A stretch of DNA of 64,000 nucleotides, from contig JAFTGL010000009.1 in NCBI GenBank assembly GCA_017457955.1, positions 186,001 to 250,000 on the forward strand, given 5' to 3'. This DNA is from Ruminococcus sp. (GTDB taxonomy: Bacteria > Bacillota > Clostridia > Oscillospirales > Acutalibacteraceae). Position 1 is the stretch's first letter; each line of letters opens with the position of its first letter. Position numbers and translations under genes: made by a program. Under the pieces are notes generated by a model. The model was not told the DNA's origin. It was given only the letters and a program-made list of their open reading frames with translations, and did no database searches. This document shows positions 48,725 to 64,000 of this stretch, in pieces.

Positions 48725-50398
48725 TTATCGTTCTTCGATCTTTTTATCCGAGATCGTTACTACCTTGTCGCAGATCTGCTCCACGGCTTTTTTGTGGGAT
48801 ATGATGATACAGGTTTTATTCTGCAATGCTCTCAGATTATGGAGGAGCTGTATCTCGGTCTCTTCATCCAGAGCGGAGGTCGCTTCGTCCAAAAGAATGA
48901 TCGGCGCTCCTGTCAGGATCGCTCTCGCGATCGCTACGCGCTGTACCTGTCCCTCGCTGAGACCTCCCCCGTGCTCCGCGATCACTGTATCGAGTCCTTC
49001 GGGCAGCTCGCTGATAAAGTCATACGCGCAGGCGATCTTTGCCGCGTTCAGAATATCCTCATCCGTTGCGTCAGGAGCGACGAAGGCGATATTCTCCCGC
49101 AGAGTTCCCGACAGCAGGAAATTGCCCTGCGGCACATAGGAAAACAACTTTCTCAGGCTCTTATCAACGGTATACTCCTTCTCGGACGTATGTACAAATA
49201 TCCTGCCCTTTTTGGGCTGATATACGCTCAGCAGCAGCTTCATCAGTGTGCTTTTGCCAATACCTGAGATTCCCTCGATCGCGACAAATTCTCCCTTGTC
49301 GATCGACAGTGAAGTATCCTCTAAAACGATATCGCGGTCAAACGCGAAGCTGATGCCGTCAAAACGGATCCCTTTCATTTCACGGTACAGCCGTTCTGTA
49401 TCGACGTCGCTGTTAAGCTCCTGTTCCTCGGGAAGATCCTCGATCTCGAGAATCCTCTCCGCAGAAGCAAGGGCGTTGAAATAGGTCGGAAAGATATTGG
49501 TCATACCTTGGATCGGAGTGCGGATCTGACCGATCAGCGACGTGATCTGGATCAGAACGCCGTATGAGATCATCCCGTAGAACAGCATATAAGCGCCGTA
49601 TCCGAGTCCCCACGCGAAAGCGAAAGCAAACAGCGCACTCATCCCTGTGCCTGTGATGATCGAATAGATATTGCGCTTGCGCTGGGCTTTGTAAGAATCC
49701 TCCTGTAATTCGAACGCGGACACGCGCATTTTCTCCTGCGCACCAAAGGTCTTTATCATCAAGAGAGAACCCAGTCCCTCCTGCATGAAGGAGCGGACTC
49801 TTCCCTCTTTTTCCTGTACGTTCTTATGCAGACGCTTTGTCAGCGGCTTGAACAGCGACGCTATCACAAAAATCAGCCCACCGCCAACGACAAATACCAA
49901 TGCGAATATCATGTCGATACTCACCAGAATATAAAAGATACCGATGATCTTTACGATAAAAAAGACGAGACTGGGTATGATGGACACGATCGCCGAGGTC
50001 ACAACACCGATGTCGTTGGTCAGGCGGTTCATCAGTTCACCCGAATGATACGCGGAGATATCGGAATATTCCTTTGTCATCATAGAATAAAACAGCGTCG
50101 ATTTCATGCTCATATCGAGCTTCGCGCTGATCTTGAAACCCAAATCCCGCGCCAGAATCAGCGTGACGATCTGCGCGGCGGTGATTCCGAAATAATACAG
50201 CGCGTAGCGGATCACATCGTCAAAAGAACCGCCCTGAACGCCTTTGACAGCGGCGTCAACCAAGTAACGCGCGAACTGCGTGTTGTACACGCCGATAAAG
50301 GCGTTCAGTCCATAGACCAACGCCAAAAACAAGATATTATACCACTGAGGCTTTGCGCTGCGAACGATCCAGCGCAGGGCACTATTTTTTTTATGCAC
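48725..50398 (-). CDS. ABC transporter, fused permease and ATPase (exporter type)
   Basis: 557 aa. Six membrane helices in residues 15-310, then an ATPase: Walker A EGISGIGKSTLM, Q-loop YVPQGNFLLSG, signature LSEGQVQRVAIAR (Glu in place of the usual Gly), Walker B IILLDEATSALDE, and the H-loop ISHKK. No N-terminal C39 peptidase domain, so any peptide processing must be done elsewhere, plausibly by the peptidase encoded at 51145. GTG start at 50398 with GGAGG 6 nt upstream. It acts as a homodimeric exporter of an unknown, perhaps peptide, substrate. Confidence 0.88.
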   Translation of the reverse strand: MHKKNSALRWIVRSAKPQWYNILFLALVYGLNAFIGVYNTQFARYLVDAAVKGVQGGSFDDVIRYALYYFGITAAQIVTLILARDLGFKISAKLDMSMKSTLFYSMMTKEYSDISAYHSGELMNRLTNDIGVVTSAIVSIIPSLVFFIVKIIGIFYILVSIDMIFALVFVVGGGLIFVIASLFKPLTKRLHKNVQEKEGRVRSFMQEGLGSLLMIKTFGAQEKMRVSAFELQEDSYKAQRKRNIYSIITGTGMSALFAFAFAWGLGYGAYMLFYGMISYGVLIQITSLIGQIRTPIQGMTNIFPTYFNALASAERILEIEDLPEEQELNSDVDTERLYREMKGIRFDGISFAFDRDIVLEDTSLSIDKGEFVAIEGISGIGKSTLMKLLLSVYQPKKGRIFVHTSEKEYTVDKSLRKLFSYVPQGNFLLSGTLRENIAFVAPDATDEDILNAAKIACAYDFISELPEGLDTVIAEHGGGLSEGQVQRVAIARAILTGAPIILLDEATSALDEETEIQLLHNLRALQNKTCIIISHKKAVEQICDKVVTISDKKIEER

Positions 50399-50455
50399 AA
50401 AAACCTCCATACAAACATTGCAGAGGCGGGTAATCATAATATACCCGCCCTTAGT

Positions 50456-51144: not shown

Positions 51145-51600
51145 CTATCCTTTCTTCAACACACGATGATACGCCTTAGATAAAAGTATCCGTAAACGTT
51201 TTTTCAGCATCATCCGACGGACATATAACCGATAGCGAAAATCATTCACCTGAACTTCTCTGCCCTTATGGGTAAAAGCAGTCATCAGAGCAAGGACGTC
51301 ATCGTCCCCGATTCCATACTCATAATCATACTGGTTATCGCCGCAGAAAATATACCCGCCGTCTTTCGTGAGCCCGATCATGCGATGCAGCACGAGTTGC
51401 CCTGATTGCGGACGCATATAAAACGCGACGTCATATTTTTTTAGCCGATCGGGCTTCTCGGAAAAAGTCACCTTATCGGTCTTACCGTCCAACATCGGCA
51501 GCATGCTGTTACCGGACGGGACGAAAGTAATACTCTGCCCGCGGTCAAAGCTGTCCTGCATCATCGCGATAAAAACCTCAGGTGATAACCGTTCACTCAA
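51145..51600 (-). CDS. S24/S26-type serine peptidase (signal-peptidase-like)
   Basis: About 151 aa. The catalytic Ser is in PSGNSMLPMLDGK, the candidate Lys in DRLKKYDVAFYMRP, and box E-like residues in LVLHRMIGL and FCGDNQYDYE. No N-terminal membrane helix is seen, unlike housekeeping signal peptidase I; a basic amphipathic C-terminus may touch the membrane. I prefer the TTG at 51600 (LSERLSPEVF), which overlaps the PqqD gene's TGA and has GAGAGG upstream. It is a candidate for leader-peptide removal in this operon. Confidence 0.75.
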   Translation of the reverse strand: MSERLSPEVFIAMMQDSFDRGQSITFVPSGNSMLPMLDGKTDKVTFSEKPDRLKKYDVAFYMRPQSGQLVLHRMIGLTKDGGYIFCGDNQYDYEYGIGDDDVLALMTAFTHKGREVQVNDFRYRLYVRRMMLKKRLRILLSKAYHRVLKKG

Positions 51601-51856
51601 GCAGATCCGCCTCTCTGAGCTTATCGACAAAGCGGTCTACATCCGCCGACGCTTTCGGCTCATCAACTTCATATTCGTCCAATAATCGGGCGATAAGCTC
51701 TTCCCTGTCGCTTTCCTTTTCGAGAAGCTTCCATAGAAATGCGCCGCTTTCCGAAAGCTTGATGATTCCGGAAAAATCGACCGTTCTTGTCCTCACGGGA
51801 ACAACGACATAGGAACCCGCGATTTTTTTCAGAATATAGTTATCTTTGATCTTCAT
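51593..51856 (-). CDS. PqqD-like protein (RiPP precursor recognition fold)
   Basis: About 87 aa. PqqD pattern: MKIKDNYILKKIAGSYVVVP, FSGIIKLSESGAFLWKLLE, then a helical C-terminus ELIARLLDEYEVDEPKASAD ending in DRFVDKLREADLLE. Stand-alone PqqD-like proteins bind leader peptides of ribosomally made, modified peptides (RiPPs). Start taken at the ATG at 51856. It heads the operon peptidase, HprK-like, ABC transporter, lipoprotein, and its promoter lies immediately upstream. Confidence 0.85.
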   Translation of the reverse strand: MKIKDNYILKKIAGSYVVVPVRTRTVDFSGIIKLSESGAFLWKLLEKESDREELIARLLDEYEVDEPKASADVDRFVDKLREADLLE

Positions 51857-51873
51857 ATGTAACACCCAAGAAA

Positions 51874-52538: not shown

Positions 52539-54066
52539 ATGAAAACAAAAATTGACCGAATGAAAAACAGAGCCAAGAGTATGTCGAAACGCTCTTTAGC
52601 ACTGATGCTGAGCATTCTCGTGCTGATCACCGCGGTCGGTGCAGGCGCGGTATTCACCGCGATCGCCGCTACGACTAACAGTGTTTCTGACGGACAGAGT
52701 GCGAGCGAAAGGATCGAAGCAACCGCCAACCGCTACGATACGGAAGAAACGATGCTGAACGGTGCGCCCGACGCCGCGGCTGCGGAAAATGACACTAACG
52801 CTGATGCCGGCGCCGCAGACGCTGTTACCCTTAGCAAGAAGGGCGGTACCGATTTAGCCGGTACGGGCGCTACTTATGCATTTCAAGGCAGTTTTCCCGG
52901 AATGGGCGGTTGGGATAGCAGTTATACCGGCGTATCATTAAATACCGCGTATTCTTTTACTGTTTCATCTACAGGCACTTATTATTTCCGAGTTTTGGAT
53001 GGCTCGACAAGATTCGGCGCTTCAGCAGGTACCACTATTACAGGCAGTCAAGATTATAATTTGAATAGCAGCCACAGTAGTGATACTGATACACTTGGTG
53101 TTGTGGCTAATGTTACGGGTACATATAAAATCACAATGAAATCTTCGCCTAACAATGGCTCGGTAACTGTACACGTTGATTATCCTTCTGCTACTTCCTA
53201 CACCATCTCCTACAACACTCCCACCAATGGCAGCTTTACCACAAAGCCTACTTCTGCTAATTCCGGCAGCACGGTTACATTTGTTGCAACTCCCGCTAAC
53301 GGTTATGAGATCGATACTGTCACAGTTAAGAATGGCAGCACAAACATTACAACAACAAAAAAACGGCAACACATATAAATTTACGATGCCTGCCGCGAAT
53401 GTCAGCGTCAATGCTACTTTCAAAAAGGCGTCGTACACGATCACAACCAATGCGACACAGTGCAGTGTGAGCGGCGTTACATCACCTGCCGAATACGGTT
53501 CGACAGTCACCTTTACCGTCACGCCTAATACTGACTACGCGCTGAAAACGCTGACTGTTAAGCAGGGCACAACCACCGTTTCTGTTAACGATAACGGCGG
53601 CGGTTCTTACAGCTTCACCATGCCCGCAGGCGCGGTGACTATCACGGCTACTTGTACTACCACAAGCGGAACGGCTGAGATTTACTTCAAGTCGGCGACA
53701 GCTTGGGTATATCATCCCTTCATCTCCGTCGACAACGGAGCGGAGCAGGAGATGACGGTTGACACATATCTGAATAACGGTACCAAGAGCGATGCGGTAA
53801 AGCCGAAGAGCGACACAGGTTCTCTGCGTTACGCATGGTATAAGATCAGCCTGTCCGGTATCGATACCTCCAAACCCGTTACCATTAAGGTTCGTGGAAA
53901 TGACACCTACATGGAAGCGGAAGGCACCTTCACGATCGGTTCGGGCGATTCACTCTATCTCGCATGCGATAACCTCATGGAGGGCAGCACATTGGTAGAT
54001 GTTTCGTCATTGTCTGCAGAAGCGAGAGACTTCTATGACACACCGCTTAACATGATAGACGATTAA
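52539..54066 (+). pseudogene. Secreted InlB-repeat protein split by a one-base frameshift in an A7 run
   Basis: The first frame gives a signal peptide (SLALMLSILVLITAVGAGAV) and a Thr/Ser-rich extracellular region reaching VTVKNGSTNITTT, then stops at 53378. The other frame continues smoothly with NGNTYKFTMPAANVSVNATF to the stop at 54066. The join is at A7, 53357-53363; with six A the two parts form one protein of about 508 aa. The sequence contains SYTISYNTPTNGSF- and YTITTNATQCSVSG-type repeats with GYEIDTVTV and YALKTLTV cores, as in bacterial InlB-like/Big repeats. AGGGAGG precedes the ATG. Either inactive, phase-variable or a base-calling error. Confidence 0.75.
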
Positions 54067-54108: not shown

Positions 54109-54148
54109 AGCAATGTGTAAACATTGAAATATTTTGGAGGAAATTAAA

Positions 54149-57100
54149 ATGAAAATTAATTTAAGGCAAAAAGCAAAATCAGCTTTATCGATTCTGCTGA
54201 CCCTTTGCATGGTGCTTTCGGTTCTCACCGTCGGTATTGTATCCACCGGCGCGTCTGAGGTGGATATGGCTGAGAGCGGAGTGACTACGGTTGCTCTTGC
54301 CGGTTCTATGAACGCATGGAGTACTTCAGCTAATACGGCAACTGTGTCAAGCAATGTCGCTAGTATTACTGTACAGCTCGGATCCGGTTCTTTCTCGTTT
54401 AAAATGGTAGAAGATTCCTCGTCGTGGTACGGTAATGGTGGAAGCTTTACCGACACTTGTAGTGCATGGGAATTCAAAACGAGTGATGGCAATTGTACCA
54501 TTAATACAACAGGTGGTACTTACAAGTTTTCGTATAATACCAGTACTCACAAATTGACTGTTACTCAGGAAAAGGATCCTTATGTGTCTGTTGCAAGCGG
54601 CGATGGTTATTATATTTATGTTGGTGAACCAACTAGTTGGAATCAGTCAAATTTTGGTGTTACGAAAAACAACGCAGCCTATGATAGCGATAGTGCTCAG
54701 AGAGTGGCAAGCGGAAGTGGTTCGCAGTACACAATTAGCAGCAACACATATAAATTTGCTCCTATGTATGTTCCTACCGGTACCTATTATTATGGTCATG
54801 CCGGATATTCATTAAATAAATCAAGTGCTGCATCTGCAGGAAGAGCATATCTGGTGACGAGTACCACTACACCATCCGGTTTTACGTGGATAGGTAATGA
54901 TGGAAGTAATGGTCTTCATTATAAGAACGGAACTACGTCAGCAACTACTACCTGCGATTCTACAGTACAGAAGGGAACAGATCTATCCGTTTCCACTACC
55001 TCATTAGGTTCTTCAAGTGTAGGTACTGCAAATTCCGCGACAAATACAAAGTATTACTTGAAAAACGGTTCAACATATACTTCTGTAAGTTTATCAAATG
55101 GTAAATTATCCACTTCTTCGCTTACCGAAAACACCACCTATTCCTTAATCACTTTAATTAGTGATGGTAAGGTTTATGTAAAAGCCGATACTGACAACTT
55201 TACTGTTACACCTGCTACCACCGACCTCCCGACTCCTACTTGGAGTTCATCATCCGTGGCGGCAAATGCCGGCGACACAGTTACTTTGACAGTGAACAAC
55301 CATGCTACGATCAGCGGTCAGGACAGCGGCGTTACCTATGAGCTGTATAAAGGCACAACTAAGCTGACCTCCGGTTATAAATATAACAATGGTGTCTTTA
55401 CTCTTTCTAATGTATCAACATCAAACGCCGGATCATATTATGTGAAAGCAATCGCTAACAATACAACCTTGTATAGTAATTCTGCTAAATCCTCGGCGGC
55501 AACCCTCGCCGTTTATGAGCCGATGTACGCCATTTCCGGTAACCATGTTGATTGGGGCGCGTACTTAATCGATTACGATAATGACGGCGAATATGATGAC
55601 GATCCTAAGCAACTTGAACTTCTCACAAAACCTACCGAATCCGCCAACTATTTCAACACTTGGCAGGATGTTCTTGCTATTGACAATCCCACCGCTACTC
55701 CCGGCGTGTACAGCTTTACTTTCAAGACCAAGGAAAAAGCTGATTATGATTGGAACGGTTTCAATGGTATCGGTCTTTGTCTCTACCAGAAAGACACCGC
55801 TCAAAGGGCGTTTATCAAGAACGGCACAGCTTACAATACATCCAACAACGACCTGACCATTACCGACGACGGAATTGTAGATGGCGATAATCTGTATGTT
55901 AATAATCTGGGCACTCCTGCCGGCGGTTCGCTGGTGTTAAAGAGAGGTCAAACCTACACCATCACCATTGATCAGACAAAGCGTTATAGTAATTCTTCGA
56001 GCTATCCTTGGGGTAAGATCACGATCACAACCACCGACGTATTCGCTGACGTGGCGGCGAAAAAGCAGGTGTTCAATGCTACAGATGGTCAGTATGAAGA
56101 TGCTGTCGACTGTGAAGCAGCCATCGGTACCGTATCGGCAGAACCTGTTCATAATGCAGGTTCTCTGAACACTATCCTTACCGCAGTCGACGTAAATGCC
56201 AATTATGATTTTATCGGTTGGTATACCAACGCTGATTGTACCGGTACTCCCGCAATCGCCGCAAGTGCATGCACCAAAACAGATAACACTTATACAACGC
56301 CGGTCACTATCTCTGAAACAACAGAGTATTATGCTTTATTTAAACAGAAGCAGCCGTCACAGTATACTGTTACACTGACCCAGCCCTCATATGGCACGAT
56401 TTCGACAACCGGCGGCGTATCGGGAGATCAGGCATATCAGGGCGCGACGGTATCACTCAATGCAACGGTTACCGATCACAGTAAGGAATTCTCTCACTGG
56501 TTGATCACCAACGCTGCAACCGATGTAGATATCACCTCTACCGTATGCGCTAACCCCACTCAGGCAACTTCAACCTTTACCATGCCGGCTCTGAACGTCA
56601 AGGTAACGGCGATCTATTCTAACAAAACGCAGGTTTCGATCACAACGAGCAGTAACAATACCGACCTCGGTACAGCTTCTTATACGGCTGGCACCTACTA
56701 TGTCGGCGACACAATTACCATTAGCGCGACCAATGTCGGCGGCGTATTTAGCAGATGGGTTGTCACCGGCGGTACAATCGACGACGCCAGCAGTGCGACT
56801 GCGCACATCACCGCTACCGGTTCCACCGTAACCGCAAGAGCGATCTTTGATTATAAGACGTATCAGCTGTATTATAACGGAAAATATTATCCGTTGCTTC
56901 GTCAGGATGACGGCTCATATGTTTCTACATTTAAAATCCCGTCAAACAGCAGTGACTTCACCGTTTATAATGCAAGTGATAAGAAATACGCAGTATCCGG
57001 TACCGGAAACACATGGGAATTCACTGCAAGTACCAGAAACGCAACCATTTATAACTCTACCACTGCAAATAATAGCGCTTGGGCGTCATCAGTAGGTAAA

Positions 57101-60100
57101 CAGTACAAAAATACCAGTGCAGGCGCAGCCGCATATATGGTTTTCTATCCGCCGGGATATAAAATCAGTTCTACTACCTACGGCAATGGTCGTATTTCTC
57201 TTGTAACCGACAATATTCTTGGAGCTGTAGCCACTGTTTACGCCAAGGACGGTTCGATCCGTTACGCAAACGGCGGTACCGCTGACGGCGGCGGCGCCAG
57301 TTCCGGTGAACTGTGGAGTGATGGCGGTGACATTACGGCTAAGAAGGGCGTTACTACGGTGACAAAGATCAACAGCACCGCTGTTCCTAACCCTGACAGT
57401 ACAAGATATCCGGATACTGTTGCAAACAGCGACCACCTCAAAATCTATTCTGCTCCGATCGGCAGCACCATCACGATCCAGACTACCGTTAACGAAACCT
57501 ATAAGAATCAAGGCTTCTATGTAGGCATGTTTGTTATCAACGGCTGGAAGGTTGCGGCTTCCGACGCAGGTAAGGGCGTATATACCGCTACCTACACCCT
57601 GACAGATGAATATGCAGAGAATAATCTCAGCAGCGAAAAGTCTTTTGAAATTACACCTGTATATTACAACAAAAACTTCCAGTACGTTACCTTCTATGTT
57701 GACGCGAATTCCGTTCCGTCAAAATGGAAAACCACAATCTCCACCTGTGCAGACTACAGATCCACTGACGGTACATCGGCAGCTTCTTCGCATTTTGAGG
57801 GCTCTTATCCCGGTCAGCCGCTCGGACGTGAAGGTGACCTCTACGAAATCAAGGTAGCAAAGTATTTTTACGATTACAGCAGTACTACCGGTAAATGGAC
57901 AGAGCATCCCAACTACTACCCGTCGGCAACCATTACCGCGTACAACTATGACTCCGTACATCACTATTACTATGTGTATGGTGATGACAATGTCAACACA
58001 TCCAACAATAAAAACTACCAGACCTATGACTTTGCCGACTTCTCATATCTGGCACAGATAGATGGGATCGAAGCTATCCTGTTCAGATGTAAGTATGAGA
58101 CGAGCAAAAACAACTGGCAGATTTATAATGTGACTGATGACAATAACGCTAACTATGATCCCAAAAGCGATGAACCGGAATGGTTCAATGTCAGCACCAA
58201 CAGTGAATTAAACACATGGCAGTGGTTAACAGACTACTATGGAAACCCGATTGACGCGTTTGGTAACCGTATTGTAAAATCCGGCTCCGGAGAAAGCGCG
58301 GTATACTATACTGCTGAAGATCTTGCATCTCTTTCTCCCACAACTAATGAGCAGGTAAGAATTGTTTCCTACGGTAACAAAATGTCTACCGGTACTACCA
58401 CCGTCAGAACCAAAGCTCAGTGGGCTACCGGCTGGGTCGTTTATACAAAGGGTTCAACCAGCGGAACGAAATACTTTAAGGCATACGGTACTCCCGCTGA
58501 CTTTATTTGCACAACACCCGGCGACACTTCTACCGCGAATGTTAAGTATTATTCGGGCGGCAGTGCATCTGATATCAAGGGCAAGCTTACCATTATCTCT
58601 TATGATAAGGAAAGAACCAATAAGATCAGCGGCGTAGGCGATACCGGTCAGCGTATCGACGGTCAGTGGTACTATTCCGCTCAGCATGACTTCGATTCTA
58701 CCGTTCAGGTACATATCACAACTGCTGAGGGTACCGCTGTTAAGAATACCGATACATCTGTCGACGCTAACAGCGCTGCTGCTGCCAACACAGGTTGGAA
58801 GGGTACTACTTCCAATACGCTTGCTACTCTGGACGGCAAGACTACCGAAACCTATAGTAATGTAACCACCGAGGCAGCGCTGAACTGTACTCTGGGTTCG
58901 GGTTACACCTTTGTCGGTTGGTATATCTACGACGGTACCAACTACACCAAGATAGGCGATAATTTTGCCGATCATAATACAACCATGACGATGAAGAAAA
59001 ACTACACTATCGTCGCGGTCGTACGCGCGGTCGGCGCGGGTGATCTGGTTATCACTCACAGCCGTTATACTGGCTCGAAGCCCGAGGCGCATGACGGTTC
59101 CGGTAAGTATTTTGTTTCTGCTGTTGTAAAACATAGTAACGGCTCGACAACGACTATTTCTGAATCACAGAACTCCATTACTGTTCCCGGTCTTGCCGCG
59201 ACGGATAAGCTGACCATCACGATCCGTACCGTATGTAACGGCGCCGACACCTTCTACGCATGGTATGAAGAAGCATTGGGCGCGAATTATTCCAGAACCG
59301 GTAACTACTATGAGATTTGCTCTGAGACAGAAGACCCGCTCGGTGAATCTGAAGTAAGCTATACGTTCTTTGAGGCTGATTGCTCCACCTTCTTTAATGG
59401 CAGTACATTAGCAAGAAATACGATCGATCTTTATTCTGACATCGTTCACGTTTCCGCATATGCGACTTTGACGTATAAGTACTATGACCGCTTCGCTCAA
59501 AACGGTGCTAATCAGATGGTATCTTATGTGGTTAGGAATGTTCCGCTGACTGATGAAGAAATCGATAACGGATATATTCCCACTGACGCTAAGATCTCTC
59601 AGTATGCTCCTAAGGTCGTTGACACGATCTATACCGATACCAAGTGGACGATCGCAGGTACTAAGGTCGAAAGAGCCGCTTCCAATGTTACGCTGATGGC
59701 TACTCAGACGCCTAAGACATGCTTCGTAGAGTATGTTCCCGGTGAACAGGTAGGTAATGATCTTCTGAGTGGCGATACTGAACTACCTGTCGGAGATATC
59801 GTATCTTGGAATACCAGAATCGTTGATTACAACAGCTGGCTGATCGACGAGAACGCTGATATGAGCAATCCTGACGAAAGCGATTTCTATGTCAACGCTC
59901 CTGAAACTTATACCGACGAAAATGCGGGTAGGACATGGACGTTTGTAAGGTTCGATGTTTATGAGTATGATCGTCTTACCGGAAATATAGGCGACGTCAT
60001 CTACAGCACGAACGATCATACATTCGGGTACAGAATTTATGCTGACTGCGTGATCTATCCTGTCTATACCAATGAAGCGACCGTTACAAAGGAGCTGACC

Positions 60101-60670
60101 GCAAAGATTGAACCTGCGGTTCTGAACCGTGAAGTTTACGGTGATTCCGCTTCACCGACCGATAAGCTGTATGCTGACTTGCTCATATCCTTTATCAATG
60201 TTGCTGCTGCAGCAGACGGAGAAATTCCTGAGGAAATCAAAGATCTTGCCGCGGATTCCGGCTATACCATTGAAACAGGATTTGTACTTGACAAGACTGT
60301 ACTTCTCAGTGATACTGACTTCAACACTCTTAAAACTGCGGCACAGGAAGGTGCAACCGATACAACTGATACGATCTTAACCAGATATACCAGTCAGTTT
60401 AATGCTTCGACAGCTGAAAGTGTTGCAAAGGGCACAGCTACAACCGGCTTCTCTAAGTATGTTCTTGATAATGCTAAGCTGACTAACAAGAACCGTACTG
60501 ACGGTGTTGTCAGATTCAGCAACTCTGAGACTGCTCAAAAGAAAGTTTATGCTGCTTATTCGTACATCATTATTAAGAAGGGTAACGTATTAACCGCATT
60601 CGCTATTTCTGATGCTCAGCTCTTCAACTTCTGCTATCTTGGCAATAAGCCGCTTGACAAGGTTTCTTAA
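54149..60670 (+). CDS. Giant secreted repeat protein (2173 aa)
   Basis: Signal peptide MKINLRQKAKSALSILLTLC..., then an SBM-like beta domain (VALAGSMNAWS). The body is Ser/Thr/Tyr-rich, including InlB-type repeats with FIGWYTNADCTGTP (near residue 690), a FSHWL core (near 783) and FVGWYIYDGTNYTKI (near 1588), and many aromatic/Thr segments. The last 190 residues (about 1975-2165) are a separate domain (LYADLLISFINVAAAA to VYAAYSYIIIKK), shared with the protein truncated at the right edge. No LPxTG, dockerin, cohesin or membrane anchor is seen, so retention at the surface is unexplained. ATG at 54149 follows GGAGG by 8 nt. Confidence 0.85.
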   Translation: MKINLRQKAKSALSILLTLCMVLSVLTVGIVSTGASEVDMAESGVTTVALAGSMNAWSTSANTATVSSNVASITVQLGSGSFSFKMVEDSSSWYGNGGSFTDTCSAWEFKTSDGNCTINTTGGTYKFSYNTSTHKLTVTQEKDPYVSVASGDGYYIYVGEPTSWNQSNFGVTKNNAAYDSDSAQRVASGSGSQYTISSNTYKFAPMYVPTGTYYYGHAGYSLNKSSAASAGRAYLVTSTTTPSGFTWIGNDGSNGLHYKNGTTSATTTCDSTVQKGTDLSVSTTSLGSSSVGTANSATNTKYYLKNGSTYTSVSLSNGKLSTSSLTENTTYSLITLISDGKVYVKADTDNFTVTPATTDLPTPTWSSSSVAANAGDTVTLTVNNHATISGQDSGVTYELYKGTTKLTSGYKYNNGVFTLSNVSTSNAGSYYVKAIANNTTLYSNSAKSSAATLAVYEPMYAISGNHVDWGAYLIDYDNDGEYDDDPKQLELLTKPTESANYFNTWQDVLAIDNPTATPGVYSFTFKTKEKADYDWNGFNGIGLCLYQKDTAQRAFIKNGTAYNTSNNDLTITDDGIVDGDNLYVNNLGTPAGGSLVLKRGQTYTITIDQTKRYSNSSSYPWGKITITTTDVFADVAAKKQVFNATDGQYEDAVDCEAAIGTVSAEPVHNAGSLNTILTAVDVNANYDFIGWYTNADCTGTPAIAASACTKTDNTYTTPVTISETTEYYALFKQKQPSQYTVTLTQPSYGTISTTGGVSGDQAYQGATVSLNATVTDHSKEFSHWLITNAATDVDITSTVCANPTQATSTFTMPALNVKVTAIYSNKTQVSITTSSNNTDLGTASYTAGTYYVGDTITISATNVGGVFSRWVVTGGTIDDASSATAHITATGSTVTARAIFDYKTYQLYYNGKYYPLLRQDDGSYVSTFKIPSNSSDFTVYNASDKKYAVSGTGNTWEFTASTRNATIYNSTTANNSAWASSVGKQYKNTSAGAAAYMVFYPPGYKISSTTYGNGRISLVTDNILGAVATVYAKDGSIRYANGGTADGGGASSGELWSDGGDITAKKGVTTVTKINSTAVPNPDSTRYPDTVANSDHLKIYSAPIGSTITIQTTVNETYKNQGFYVGMFVINGWKVAASDAGKGVYTATYTLTDEYAENNLSSEKSFEITPVYYNKNFQYVTFYVDANSVPSKWKTTISTCADYRSTDGTSAASSHFEGSYPGQPLGREGDLYEIKVAKYFYDYSSTTGKWTEHPNYYPSATITAYNYDSVHHYYYVYGDDNVNTSNNKNYQTYDFADFSYLAQIDGIEAILFRCKYETSKNNWQIYNVTDDNNANYDPKSDEPEWFNVSTNSELNTWQWLTDYYGNPIDAFGNRIVKSGSGESAVYYTAEDLASLSPTTNEQVRIVSYGNKMSTGTTTVRTKAQWATGWVVYTKGSTSGTKYFKAYGTPADFICTTPGDTSTANVKYYSGGSASDIKGKLTIISYDKERTNKISGVGDTGQRIDGQWYYSAQHDFDSTVQVHITTAEGTAVKNTDTSVDANSAAAANTGWKGTTSNTLATLDGKTTETYSNVTTEAALNCTLGSGYTFVGWYIYDGTNYTKIGDNFADHNTTMTMKKNYTIVAVVRAVGAGDLVITHSRYTGSKPEAHDGSGKYFVSAVVKHSNGSTTTISESQNSITVPGLAATDKLTITIRTVCNGADTFYAWYEEALGANYSRTGNYYEICSETEDPLGESEVSYTFFEADCSTFFNGSTLARNTIDLYSDIVHVSAYATLTYKYYDRFAQNGANQMVSYVVRNVPLTDEEIDNGYIPTDAKISQYAPKVVDTIYTDTKWTIAGTKVERAASNVTLMATQTPKTCFVEYVPGEQVGNDLLSGDTELPVGDIVSWNTRIVDYNSWLIDENADMSNPDESDFYVNAPETYTDENAGRTWTFVRFDVYEYDRLTGNIGDVIYSTNDHTFGYRIYADCVIYPVYTNEATVTKELTAKIEPAVLNREVYGDSASPTDKLYADLLISFINVAAAADGEIPEEIKDLAADSGYTIETGFVLDKTVLLSDTDFNTLKTAAQEGATDTTDTILTRYTSQFNASTAESVAKGTATTGFSKYVLDNAKLTNKNRTDGVVRFSNSETAQKKVYAAYSYIIIKKGNVLTAFAISDAQLFNFCYLGNKPLDKVS

Positions 60671-60690: not shown

Positions 60691-60831
60691 ATGAGAAAAG
60701 AGTATTCAACTCCTGAAGTTGAGTTTGTTAAGATCCAGCTTTGTAATGATGTTCTGGGTGCCAGTGTAACACAACCTTTTACTCCTGAGGAAACGATCAA
60801 TGAACAAATCTTTGATGAAGAAGAACCGTAA
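60691..60831 (+). CDS. 46-aa YSxPE/DVLxAS peptide A (candidate precursor peptide)
   Basis: Sequence starts MRKEYSTPEVEFVKIQ, has CNDVLGASV in the middle, and ends acidic (FDEEEP). GGAGG lies 9-10 nt before the ATG, and the gene is 20 nt after the giant gene. It matches peptide B at 63123 in length (46 aa), the YS-x-PE start, the aliphatic spacing, DVL-x-AS and the Pro/Glu-rich tail. A hydrophobic/aromatic leader-like first half and an acidic second half suit a RiPP precursor recognised by a PqqD-like protein, but there is no direct proof. One Cys only, so no lanthipeptide rings are implied. Confidence 0.8.
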   Translation: MRKEYSTPEVEFVKIQLCNDVLGASVTQPFTPEETINEQIFDEEEP

Positions 60832-60845
60832 GTAAAGCATTTTTT

Positions 60846-60875
60846 GAATCGGCAGGTGGCGACATCTGCCGATTC
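60846..60875 (+). other. Hairpin between peptide A and the LRR-dockerin gene
   Basis: GAATCGGCAG / CTGCCGATTC, 10-bp perfect stem with a 10-nt loop and no T-run. A hairpin of similar size occupies the equivalent position in cassette B. Confidence 0.65.
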
Positions 60876-60905
60876 TGCAATCACCTATAAACGGAGGTGC
60901 TATAG

Positions 60906-61901
60906 TTGAAAAAAATAAGATTATTATTACTGCTGTGTCTTGCGGTTTTGGTGGTGTTATCTTCTGTTGTGATTCCTGCTTCCGCCACAACTTATTATTA
61001 CAGCTCCGGCTATGAGCTGTATAAAGACGGTGACAGCAACGGTTGGATCATCAATTCATGCTCTTTAGAAGACACTGAGATCTCTTTGCCGGGCTTTCTT
61101 TTGAATGATAATGTTACCACGGTTGGCGGTAACTGCTTTGAAAATCGCTCTGATATGAGCTATGTGTATATTCCAGATACGTTCACGACCATCGGCGCGT
61201 ATGCGTTCAGCGGTTGTACCTCTCTGTCAACTGTTGATTTTGGGTCTAATCTAAACTATATCTATGTCGGTGCGTTCCGCTATTGTGATTCACTTGTCAG
61301 TGCAGATCTTTCTGACACACAGCTCAGCCTTATCGCTAACGCGGCTTTCTATCACTGTGATAATTTGGAAGAGGTCAGCTTACCTCAAACGCTTCAGACA
61401 ATCGGATCAAACACATTTGCTATGTGTCCTAAGCTGAATAAGGTTTTGATTGACAGAAATGTAACCTCTATCGCGCAGAATTCTTTTGCAAATTCTCCGA
61501 ATGTCGTCATATACTGCTACGAGGATTCTTACGCTCACCAATATGCAAAGCAAAAAGGAATAGCGTATGTACTTATTGAACCGGTCATTCCTACCGAACA
61601 TCCTACAGAAGAGCCGACGGTTTCCGAGACTGAAGTTCCTACTCAGCCTGAGACGGTTGAGCCTACTTTGCCGGAGGGTTACTATCTCGGTGATGTTGAC
61701 GGCAATAACCTTGTCGAATCAATAGACGCAACGCTGATCCAGCGATTGTTGGCAAACCTCGGTTATCCGGCATCCTGTGTCTATGAACACGGTGACGTAG
61801 ATGGTGACGGCGGAACAACGATCATAGACGCAACACTGATTCAGCGGTATCTCGGAAATTTATACGTACCGTATGAAATCAATAAGTTTATCACTGAATG
61901 A
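60906..61901 (+). CDS. Secreted BspA-like leucine-rich repeat protein with dockerin (A)
   Basis: 331 aa. Signal peptide, then about five BspA/LRR_5 repeats (YVYIPDTFTTIGAYAFSGCT, ADLSDTQLSLIANAAFYHCD, VSLPQTLQTIGSNTFAMCP), a Pro/Thr/Glu linker with tandem ETEVPTQPETVEPT, and a type I dockerin at residues 261-323 (GDVDGNNLVESIDATLIQRL and GDVDGDGGTTIIDATLIQRY). Two Ca-binding repeats are intact. The dockerin should bind a cohesin; the LRR part probably binds a surface or a protein. Starts at a TTG at 60906 after GGAGG. Convergent paralogue at 62008. Confidence 0.9.
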   Translation: MKKIRLLLLLCLAVLVVLSSVVIPASATTYYYSSGYELYKDGDSNGWIINSCSLEDTEISLPGFLLNDNVTTVGGNCFENRSDMSYVYIPDTFTTIGAYAFSGCTSLSTVDFGSNLNYIYVGAFRYCDSLVSADLSDTQLSLIANAAFYHCDNLEEVSLPQTLQTIGSNTFAMCPKLNKVLIDRNVTSIAQNSFANSPNVVIYCYEDSYAHQYAKQKGIAYVLIEPVIPTEHPTEEPTVSETEVPTQPETVEPTLPEGYYLGDVDGNNLVESIDATLIQRLLANLGYPASCVYEHGDVDGDGGTTIIDATLIQRYLGNLYVPYEINKFITE

Positions 61902-61941
61902 AAAGAAGATAAATAATACTTTTTGATTGAGAATTCTAAAT

Positions 61942-61977
61942 AAAAGAGACTACTGTATCACTACAGCAGTCTCTTTT
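61942..61977. terminator. Bidirectional terminator between the two cassettes
   Basis: AAAAGAGACTACTGTA / TACAGCAGTCTCTTTT, 16-bp stem with one mismatch and a 4-nt loop, with A/T ends. Lies midway between the convergent LRR-dockerin genes. Confidence 0.85.
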
Positions 61978-62007
61978 ACTTTATACCAGAAAATGAATTA
62001 TCATTGT

Positions 62008-63018
62008 TTAAGAATCTGTTCGGATGAAATCTCCTATCGGATACAGAACAGTTAAATTAGCAAGATGACGCTCAATGAGTGTAACGTCGATAATAGTGAT
62101 ATCATCATCACTGTCAACATCACCGTGTTCATAGACACAGGATGCCGGATAATCGAGGTTTGCTAATAAACGCTGGATCAGCGTTGCGTCTATTGATTCG
62201 ACAAGGTTATTGCCGTCAACATCACCGAGATAGTAACCCTCCGGCATAGTAGACTCAACCGTCTCAGGTTGAGTAGGAACTTCAGTCTCGGGAACAGTCG
62301 GTTTCTCAGTAGGAGGCTCGGTCGGCATATTCTCCGGGTCGAGAATTATATAGTTGATTCCTTCACTTACAGCATACTCGTGTGCATAGGAGTTGTAATA
62401 CACGCCGAGGGTGATATCCGAATCATTCTGGAAAGATGATTTTGCAATACTTGTCACAGAGGCGGGGATCTCGATATATGTCAATGCAGGACAATTCGAG
62501 AAAGCATAATATCCGATCTCGGTTACGGTATCAGTCAGCGTTACACTGCTAAGCGAGGTACATCCGCTGAAACACTGGTTCGGTACATAACCTGTTGACG
62601 CGTCAAAAACAACAGAGTCTAATGAGCTGCATCCTTGGAATGCAGCTGTTTCAATTGTGGTAACCGTATTGGGGATCACCAAACCGCCGTCAAGATTCAC
62701 GCAATTTGCGAAAGCAAAGGAACCGATACGTTCAAGATTTGTCGCATTGGAAAAAGCTACTGACGTCAATGCGGTATTATCAAAAAATGCTCTGTTTCGA
62801 ATATCTACAACCGCGCGATTGTTTAATATATCGGGGACTATCAGTTCAAAGGCATTCTCATCATCCAGTCCATACAACGACACCTTTTCATTATTAATGA
62901 AAGTATACAGATATCCGTTGTAAGAGTAAATCGTTTCAGCATAGACTGTTGTCATACTCAAACATAACATTATAGCTGCTAAGACAACTGCAAGTAATGT
63001 TTTTAAATTCTTTTTCAT
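62008..63018 (-). CDS. Secreted BspA-like leucine-rich repeat protein with dockerin (B)
   Basis: 336 aa. Signal peptide MKKNLKTLLAVVLAAIMLC, LRR_5 repeats (LVIPNTVTTIETAAFQGCS, VTLTDTVTEIGYYAFSNCP), a Pro/Thr/Glu linker and a dockerin (GDVDGNNLVESIDATLIQRL, then GDVDSDDDITIIDVTLIERH). The linker and first dockerin repeat are almost identical to protein A, while the LRR part differs, so the ends look recently duplicated or gene-converted. The second Ca-loop here is more acidic. ATG at 63018, 5 nt after AGGTGATAG. Convergent to protein A. Confidence 0.9.
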   Translation of the reverse strand: MKKNLKTLLAVVLAAIMLCLSMTTVYAETIYSYNGYLYTFINNEKVSLYGLDDENAFELIVPDILNNRAVVDIRNRAFFDNTALTSVAFSNATNLERIGSFAFANCVNLDGGLVIPNTVTTIETAAFQGCSSLDSVVFDASTGYVPNQCFSGCTSLSSVTLTDTVTEIGYYAFSNCPALTYIEIPASVTSIAKSSFQNDSDITLGVYYNSYAHEYAVSEGINYIILDPENMPTEPPTEKPTVPETEVPTQPETVESTMPEGYYLGDVDGNNLVESIDATLIQRLLANLDYPASCVYEHGDVDSDDDITIIDVTLIERHLANLTVLYPIGDFIRTDS

Positions 63019-63076
63019 ATCTATCACCTATAATCTTTTGACTATCAAGTAAAGATTATTCTGAATGGAAGTAAGT

Positions 63077-63105
63077 ACAGGCAGTACTTTTGGGGCACTG
63101 CCTGT
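63077..63105 (-). other. Hairpin between peptide B and LRR-dockerin gene B
   Basis: ACAGGCAGT / ACTGCCTGT, 9-bp perfect stem, 11-nt loop, no T-run. Equivalent in position to the hairpin at 60846-60875 but unrelated in sequence. Confidence 0.6.
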
Positions 63106-63122
63106 AATCACAACAATTTGAT

Positions 63123-63263
63123 TTAGAGGTCGCCGTCTATACCTTCGTCACCGGCACGAGTCGGGATCTCAGGTTGAGGCGTATATGTTGATGCCGCCAA
63201 AACATCAAAAGTCTTAAGTGAGACGATATCAATCTCAGGAGAAGAATATTTTCTTTTATTCAT
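63123..63263 (-). CDS. 46-aa YSxPE/DVLxAS peptide B (candidate precursor peptide)
   Basis: Begins MNKRKYSSPEIDIVSLKT, has FDVLAAST in the middle, and ends GIDGDL. Exactly as long as peptide A and aligned with it without gaps at YS-x-PE and DVL-x-AS. It contains no Cys. AAAGGAGG precedes the ATG at 63263. It lies 20 nt after the truncated large gene and is followed by a hairpin and the LRR-dockerin gene, the same order as cassette A. Confidence 0.8.
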   Translation of the reverse strand: MNKRKYSSPEIDIVSLKTFDVLAASTYTPQPEIPTRAGDEGIDGDL

Positions 63264-63283: not shown

Positions 63284-64000
63284 TTAATCAATAAATGAAC
63301 CGTTCTCGATCGTAGCCATATCGTAGATCGTGAAGTAAACGGGAGTCGGGCTGATATGAATCGTATTCGCTTTATCATTTACATCATAGATATAAGCATA
63401 TGCCCTGAAGTACTTATACTTATTTGTAAGATCATCTGTAAGCTCATATTGTGTTGTGCTTTCAGTATGTCTCTTATTTGCTAAGCTGTAGTAATATTGA
63501 ATACGGTTCTTGTTGTCAAGCGATGTTACGTCAAACTCAGATTTCGCAAAACCGCTCTGAGAGGTGTCGTTGATCAAAGAGGTCAACTTTGTCATAGTAG
63601 CTTCAGAGATGGTAGTACCATATTTGTTTCTATAGTACTCGGCGCTGGTTTCATATTCTTCTGTACCTGCCTTATATTCCATCGTACCGACCGCTTCGAT
63701 GATCAAGCCTGCCTTCTTCGTATTTGCATCAAGATCTTTCAGCGTAACATTACCGGCGATGTTGTTGTAGGAAATCAGGAAGTCGGAGTAGATACGGTCG
63801 CCGCCGCCCTTGCGGGAGTCAGCCATAGCAGTAGCTGCGGTTGAAGCGTCACCGAAATTGCCCAAATTGTACTGGTTACGGGAGTTCTCGAGGAAGGTGA
63901 TCGTGATACCGTTGGAAGAATCCAGATTCCTCTGAACATCCGGATCGAATCTGGTGTAATCATCCCATGTGCTGGGAGGAGAAGGCATATCTCCGGGGAA
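63284..64000 (-). CDS. C-terminal part of a large secreted protein (cut by window edge)
   Basis: The last 238 residues of a protein that continues past 64000. It matches the C-terminal domain of the giant protein at 54149: SDFLISYNNIAGN, GLIIEAVGTMEYKAG, SEATMTKLTSLI, FDVTSLDNKNRIQYYYSLAN, and FRAYAYIYD near the end. The upstream part visible here (STWDDYTRFDPDVQRNLDSS) may be part of the next domain in. It precedes peptide B by 20 nt. The rest of the protein cannot be judged. Confidence 0.85.
   Translation of the reverse strand, partial: FPGDMPSPPSTWDDYTRFDPDVQRNLDSSNGITITFLENSRNQYNLGNFGDASTAATAMADSRKGGGDRIYSDFLISYNNIAGNVTLKDLDANTKKAGLIIEAVGTMEYKAGTEEYETSAEYYRNKYGTTISEATMTKLTSLINDTSQSGFAKSEFDVTSLDNKNRIQYYYSLANKRHTESTTQYELTDDLTNKYKYFRAYAYIYDVNDKANTIHISPTPVYFTIYDMATIENGSFID

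Follow-up and report, generated by a model that had tools for sequence, protein, structure and literature searches.

Two short genes in the window, by which is meant the whole 64,000-nucleotide stretch of Ruminococcus sp. DNA analysed here, encode peptides A and B. Judged by their sequences, these peptides are most likely precursors that are bound by a RiPP recognition element (RRE), processed by an S26 peptidase and exported, in a system resembling that of the linear polyphosphorylated peptide (LPP) RiPPs. What is new is the site of the precursor genes: they directly follow genes for large secreted proteins, an arrangement that occurs in no open-licence paper found, and none of the open-licence papers found connects precursors of this type with surface proteins or with LRR or dockerin proteins. 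The features of the window are compiled in the table.

Table. Features of the window that bear on the peptide genes, their neighbours and the putative processing module
Feature	Position	Strand	Remarks
Peptide A	60691..60831	+	46 aa, precursor-like: leader YSTPEV...DVLGAS, then acidic tail
Peptide B	63123..63263	-	46 aa, precursor-like: leader YSSPEI...DVLAAS, then tail
Giant secreted protein A	54134..60670	+	2178 aa; ends 20 nt before peptide A
C-terminal domain (CTD) of giant A	60053..60664	+	Common within genus
Giant secreted protein B, 3' part	63284..64000	-	Ends 20 nt before peptide B; frame runs past window (L116)
CTD of giant B	63293..63922	-	Common within genus
BspA-type LRR + dockerin I secreted protein	60906..61901	+	Adjoins peptide A
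BspA-type LRR + dockerin I secreted protein	62008..63027	-	Adjoins peptide B; ATG at 63018
Hairpin, 13-bp stem	60846..60875	+	Directly downstream of peptide A
Hairpin, 12-bp stem	63076..63106	-	Directly downstream of peptide B
PqqD-like discrete RRE	51593..51865	-	Relatives start at ATG, 51856
Stand-alone S26-type peptidase (SipW/archaeal signal peptidase-like)	51145..51630	-	Ser42/His82
HprK/PEPCK-fold protein without P-loop	50456..51127	-	Probable pseudokinase
MsbA-type ABC exporter	48725..50437	-	ABC_membrane and ABC_tran over cut-off

Peptides A and B are encoded by real, homologous genes. The two 46-aa ORFs with the pattern YSxPE...DVLxAS lie where the original prediction had placed them, and a pairwise BLASTP comparison aligns them with an E value of 6e-7 and 15 identical residues in 42 columns. 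A GGAGG-type site stands just 5' of both start codons; for peptide A, an alternative in-frame ATG at 60670 would yield 53 aa, and the GGAGG-type site fits the start at 60691. The orthologue of peptide B in genome G012 differs by a dN of 0.11 and a dS of 0.55, and its tail is almost identical to that of peptide B. Scans of peptides A and B with Pfam and NCBIfam gave no match at E <= 1, and an NCBIfam scan of seven of their relatives gave no model match.

The window belongs to a genome of 1.83 Mb (G000, 74% complete). A profile built from the two peptides detected a third member there, on a different contig; its flanking genes repeat the order of the window, with the 3' end of a gene for a large secreted protein on one side and an LRR-dockerin gene on the other. 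With a profile of 31 sequences the number of matches in this genome rose to four, the fourth being a weak family member (L118) that follows the gene for a 1290-aa secreted-type protein and adjoins another PqqD gene. Among 98 related genomes, the two-sequence profile matched 56 at E <= 1, some of the matches lying inside long unrelated frames, and the 31-sequence profile matched 63 at E <= 0.1, where weak matches may include false ones. The family consensus derived from the larger profile is MKKxYxxPExE...DVLxxS followed by a variable acidic tail; Y5 and P8 are invariant among the 31 sequences, and M1 and S25 are conserved in at least 90%. In most family peptides the conserved Ser is located 19-20 residues C-terminal to the Tyr (32/32 when 32 chosen peptides were scored and a seven-residue window was allowed). 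In 37 of 52 peptides an anchor could be recognised; the tails of these comprise 18-41 residues, carry a mean net charge of -5.6 and contain Cys in only two cases. Loci L025, L029 and L030, with no recognised Y..P ORF, were left out of analysis A2. In the relatives L032, L133 and L135, two or three family peptides are encoded close to each other.

The pairing with large upstream genes, which the original prediction had not described, extends through the family. A same-strand gene of at least 150 aa ends within 150 nt upstream of 54 of 65 distinct peptides, 40 of them at a distance of 10-26 nt; the other 11 peptides have no upstream gene of that size within that distance. By a crude rule based on a hydrophobicity count, 27 of the 34 complete upstream genes encode a signal-like N-terminus, versus 368 of 1138 control genes. 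The seven genes without such a start comprise three radical-SAM-like genes and one nucleotidyltransferase gene from related clusters, one gene for an unrelated enzyme and two whose start is probably misplaced. At class level, a frame of at least 100 aa ends no more than 40 nt upstream of 17 of 19 peptides, two of which had been seen before.

A BLAST comparison of 55 upstream proteins, with giant A added, disclosed one C-terminal domain in 33 of them and another in eight. The CTD of giant B, modelled with AlphaFold over 63287-63916, is predicted to form seven strands, with a mean pLDDT of 84. Over 59 genomes, a profile of the first domain (the CTD of the table) yielded 45 matches. These are spread over 27 genomes of the genus; the 23 order-level genomes gave none, and partner proteins outside the genus thus end differently. 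A family peptide follows 39 of the 45 CTDs on the same strand within 150 nt, although the profile was built from giants standing before peptides, which can favour this reverse test. One more CTD is followed by a peptide at 418 nt, two by a divergent peptide that lacks the Pro, and three by none. Each of the three CTDs in the genome of the window is followed by a family peptide. The frame of a further secreted protein upstream of giant A (52539-54066), which begins in a way similar to the giants of relatives, shifts at about 53180-53380, such that two overlapping ORFs result from either a real break or an assembly error.

Downstream of the peptides the arrangement is also recurrent. An LRR/dockerin-like gene lies within 450 nt in 29 of the 35 cases in which the peptide stands behind an upstream gene of at least 900 aa. 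A hairpin with a stem of at least 10 follows 33 of 42 CTD-paired peptides (peptide B included, under L116), compared with 304 of 1089 other genes. A T run stands behind 21 of the 33 hairpins, and neither hairpin of the window has a T run of the terminator type.

The genes that may act on the peptides form a module about 9-12 kb from them, in agreement with the original prediction of a PqqD-like, an S26-like and an ABC gene at that distance. The PqqD-like protein matches PF05402 over the cut-off (E 8.8e-20), and its best NCBIfam match, lasso_PqqD_Bac, lies far below the cut-off. The S26 protein matches archaeal signal peptidase and SipW best, in both cases below cut-off. Among 60 such proteins the motif of the nucleophilic Ser is present in all; a His was recognised by a strict pattern in 24 and a Lys in one, and the remainder contain, by eye, mostly LHR. 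The ABC protein matches MsbA best (E 8.9e-75, below the MsbA family cut-off). The HprK-like protein is probably a dead kinase. Sequence comparison indicates that its P-loop was lost in the branch of the window and that the protein was conserved afterwards; L295, L301 and L302 were taken here from a late start, and of these L301 and L302 were judged by way of L105 and L102, which span the same genes. An intact copy is encoded elsewhere in each of eight genomes checked; in the genome of the window it lies at G000:C1:17248.

The common gene order is giant, peptide, LRR(-dockerin), PqqD, S26, (HprK-like) and ABC. In 20 regions chosen for the closeness of peptide and PqqD, a peptide lies near the module in 18, some of which lack parts or have them in another order. 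The isolate Eubacterium barkeri VPI 5359 (L170) encodes in a row a 2798-aa secreted-type protein, the peptide, PqqD, S26, an HprK-like protein with an intact P-loop, ABC and a PF14907 nucleotidyltransferase, without an LRR gene. PF14907 also adjoins the ABC gene in L103, L106, L111 and L127, and no such NTP transferase was recognised among the ORFs beside the module of the window. A further PqqD and S26 pair in the genome of the window (L119, G000:C7:286000-305000) adjoins a CotH-type kinase gene (PF08757).

That the peptides are clients of the PqqD-like protein had been proposed in the original prediction, and the distribution of the genes gives this proposal good, if indirect, support; the lack of co-occurrence with PqqD-like genes that was named there as refuting it was not seen. 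Among order-level genomes outside the genus, PqqD is present in 9 of 9 that contain a peptide (E <= 0.1) and in 15 of 38 overall (p 3e-5). The class-level sample, from which the genome of the window was left out and which has four genomes in common with the order-level sample, contains PqqD in 12 of 12 peptide-positive genomes (E <= 0.001) and in 65 of 146 overall (p 3e-5). Within the genus all 60 genomes searched have PqqD, so that co-occurrence there is uninformative. Among the matches listed, 83 for the peptide (to E 9e-6, the two of the window included) and 137 for PqqD (to about E 5e-7), 25 of the peptides lie within 12 kb of a PqqD gene, in 19 of 47 genomes, where at most 2.8 would be expected. 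In G082 peptide and PqqD are both present, on different contigs. Of 80 named PqqD loci, many of them cut by contig ends, 20 contain a family peptide (E <= 0.05) and the other 60 contain none in the locus DNA examined. Most of the named PqqD relatives belong to genomes of Ruminococcus sp. or of other Clostridia, and many of these genomes come from ruminant guts.

The LPP system, described for lppAKBSDN of Paenibacillus alginolyticus (PMC13381572, May 2026), is composed of an RRE, a SipW-like peptidase, an HprK-like kinase, an NTP transferase and an MsbA-like exporter. Its precursor motif is YxxPxVLxHQxIxFETxxS, and Ser3 of the core is phosphorylated; the biological role of the peptides is given there as unknown, and a term search of the main text did not find the words Clostridia, surface protein, adhesin or secreted. 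The hosts of the window family are Clostridia. Both systems have a discrete RRE, a SipW-like S26 peptidase, an HprK-like protein and an MsbA-like exporter, without a B2 peptidase. In both, the precursors are short, begin with a YxxPx[V] leader and conserve a Ser about 18-20 residues beyond the Tyr, 18 in the LPP motif and mostly 19-20 in the window family. Among solved structures, the RREs TbiB1, TfuB1, 9x90 and 9x8z, the last being LppB, come nearest to the PqqD alignment. The equivalent of the Tyr-binding D70 of LppB is an Asp in 96 of 100 PqqD rows and in the window PqqD, and that of the Pro-fixing N33 is an Asn in 82 of 100 rows. Sequence comparison thus supports a fit of the leader motif and of most RRE contact residues with the published system. 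The window RRE differs from LppB by a Ser in place of the Pro-fixing Asn, the replacement of which almost abolished complex assembly in LppB (PMC13381572). In contrast to the LPP system, the window family lacks the middle of the leader motif (VLxHQ, FET), retaining YxxPx[V/I] and the Ser; its precursor genes lie behind giant secreted-protein genes and are also scattered away from the module. Moreover, the HprK/PEPCK fold occurs in the window cluster without a P-loop, and no intact kinase, one of the parts that define the LPP system, accompanies it; the window locus is therefore a variant and not a standard LPP member.

Based on these comparisons, peptides A and B are probably leader-core precursors that are handled by the PqqD, S26, HprK-like and ABC module some 10 kb away. 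The RRE would bind the leader via Y5/P8/V10 in peptide A and Y6/P9/I11 in peptide B and hand over the DVLxxS region for a cut nearby by the S26 peptidase, and the ABC protein would export the acidic tail. Where a relative has kept its HprK-like kinase intact, the conserved Ser could serve as the phosphate acceptor, by analogy with LPP. The distance from the gene of a Sec-type secreted giant to its precursor gene is about 20 nt in each case, so that the two would be co-transcribed; peptide and giant are probably produced together, and the peptide most likely works on or alongside the giant at the cell surface, although the pairing could reflect co-expression only. A more specific form of this proposal, possible but doubtful, is a tagging in trans: the exported and possibly phosphorylated or nucleotidylated peptide would dock on, or be joined to, the C-terminal region of the giant and anchor or assemble it at the envelope, one module of RRE, peptidase and exporter serving several scattered pairs. 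The detection of the shared CTD in the genus only makes such tagging less likely.

The leader and variable-tail layout of the family would also suit an ordinary RiPP natural product, similar to a bacteriocin or a signal, for which the giant genes merely supply a promoter. Related PqqD loci point in the same direction: the PqqD cluster of Ruminiclostridium sufflavum (L209) includes a radical SAM gene (PF04055), and L206 and L211 encode a similar protein and leaders of a related type. All three loci encode HprK-like proteins, and their YxxP leaders carry an EER-type motif ahead of cores that often contain Cys. We nevertheless regard a natural product as rather unlikely, given the large upstream gene in 54/65 cases, the succession of CTD and peptide in 39/45 within the genus, the acidic tails almost devoid of Cys, and the nearly unchanged tail of peptide B in its orthologue. 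A resemblance to the SynChlorMet cassette (ScmC/ScmD/ScmE; NCBIfam) is confined to matches far below cut-off: ScmC was matched by HprK-like and PqqD-like proteins from relatives, and ScmD by the PqqD of the window. Of the radical SAM enzymes of that cassette (ScmE/ScmF), no counterpart was recognised among the ORFs beside the window module; L209 has a radical SAM gene.

Lasso peptides, with PqqD as the B1 protein and a cyclised core, are suggested by the YxxPx[LVI] leader, by the lasso B1 proteins among the best solved RRE matches and by the subthreshold match to lasso_PqqD_Bac. The paeninodin-like type (PadeA/B1/B2/C/K) also shares the HprK-like kinase and the ABC exporter with the window module, which instead has an S26 peptidase next to PqqD. 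The B2 family PF13471 was over cut-off in none of 36 genus genomes and matched below cut-off, within frames of 731-737 aa, in G011 and G030. With the conserved Ser as residue 1, the Asp/Glu at positions 7-9 required for the ring occurs in 23 of 37 peptides, compared with 59% expected, which is the chance level. Judged by the B2 family, the ring position and the S26 neighbour, a lasso peptide is hardly credible. The tight coupling to the giant gene, together with the fact that no product is known, would also be accounted for by a small intracellular helper of the giant (a chaperone, translational or regulatory factor) that is neither cleaved nor exported, with PqqD binding the helper or being a mere neighbour. 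This is improbable in view of the confinement of the peptide to PqqD-positive genomes even when the two genes are on separate contigs, as in G082, and of the peptidase and exporter encoded by the module.

The preferred reading of exported precursors paired with giants bears on both the family and the pathway. The peptides constitute a family of short genes without a Pfam or NCBIfam model where scanned (the two window peptides with both libraries, the seven relatives with NCBIfam), and the module has retained a kinase-fold subunit despite the loss of its P-loop. The two peptide-giant gene pairs suggest that an LPP-type pathway may serve cell-surface proteins, and tagging, if true, would provide a function for LPP-type RiPPs. 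That precursors and large secreted proteins recur as pairs across the class makes a specific role testable, namely service of a RiPP-type peptide to a surface protein as opposed to killing or signalling.
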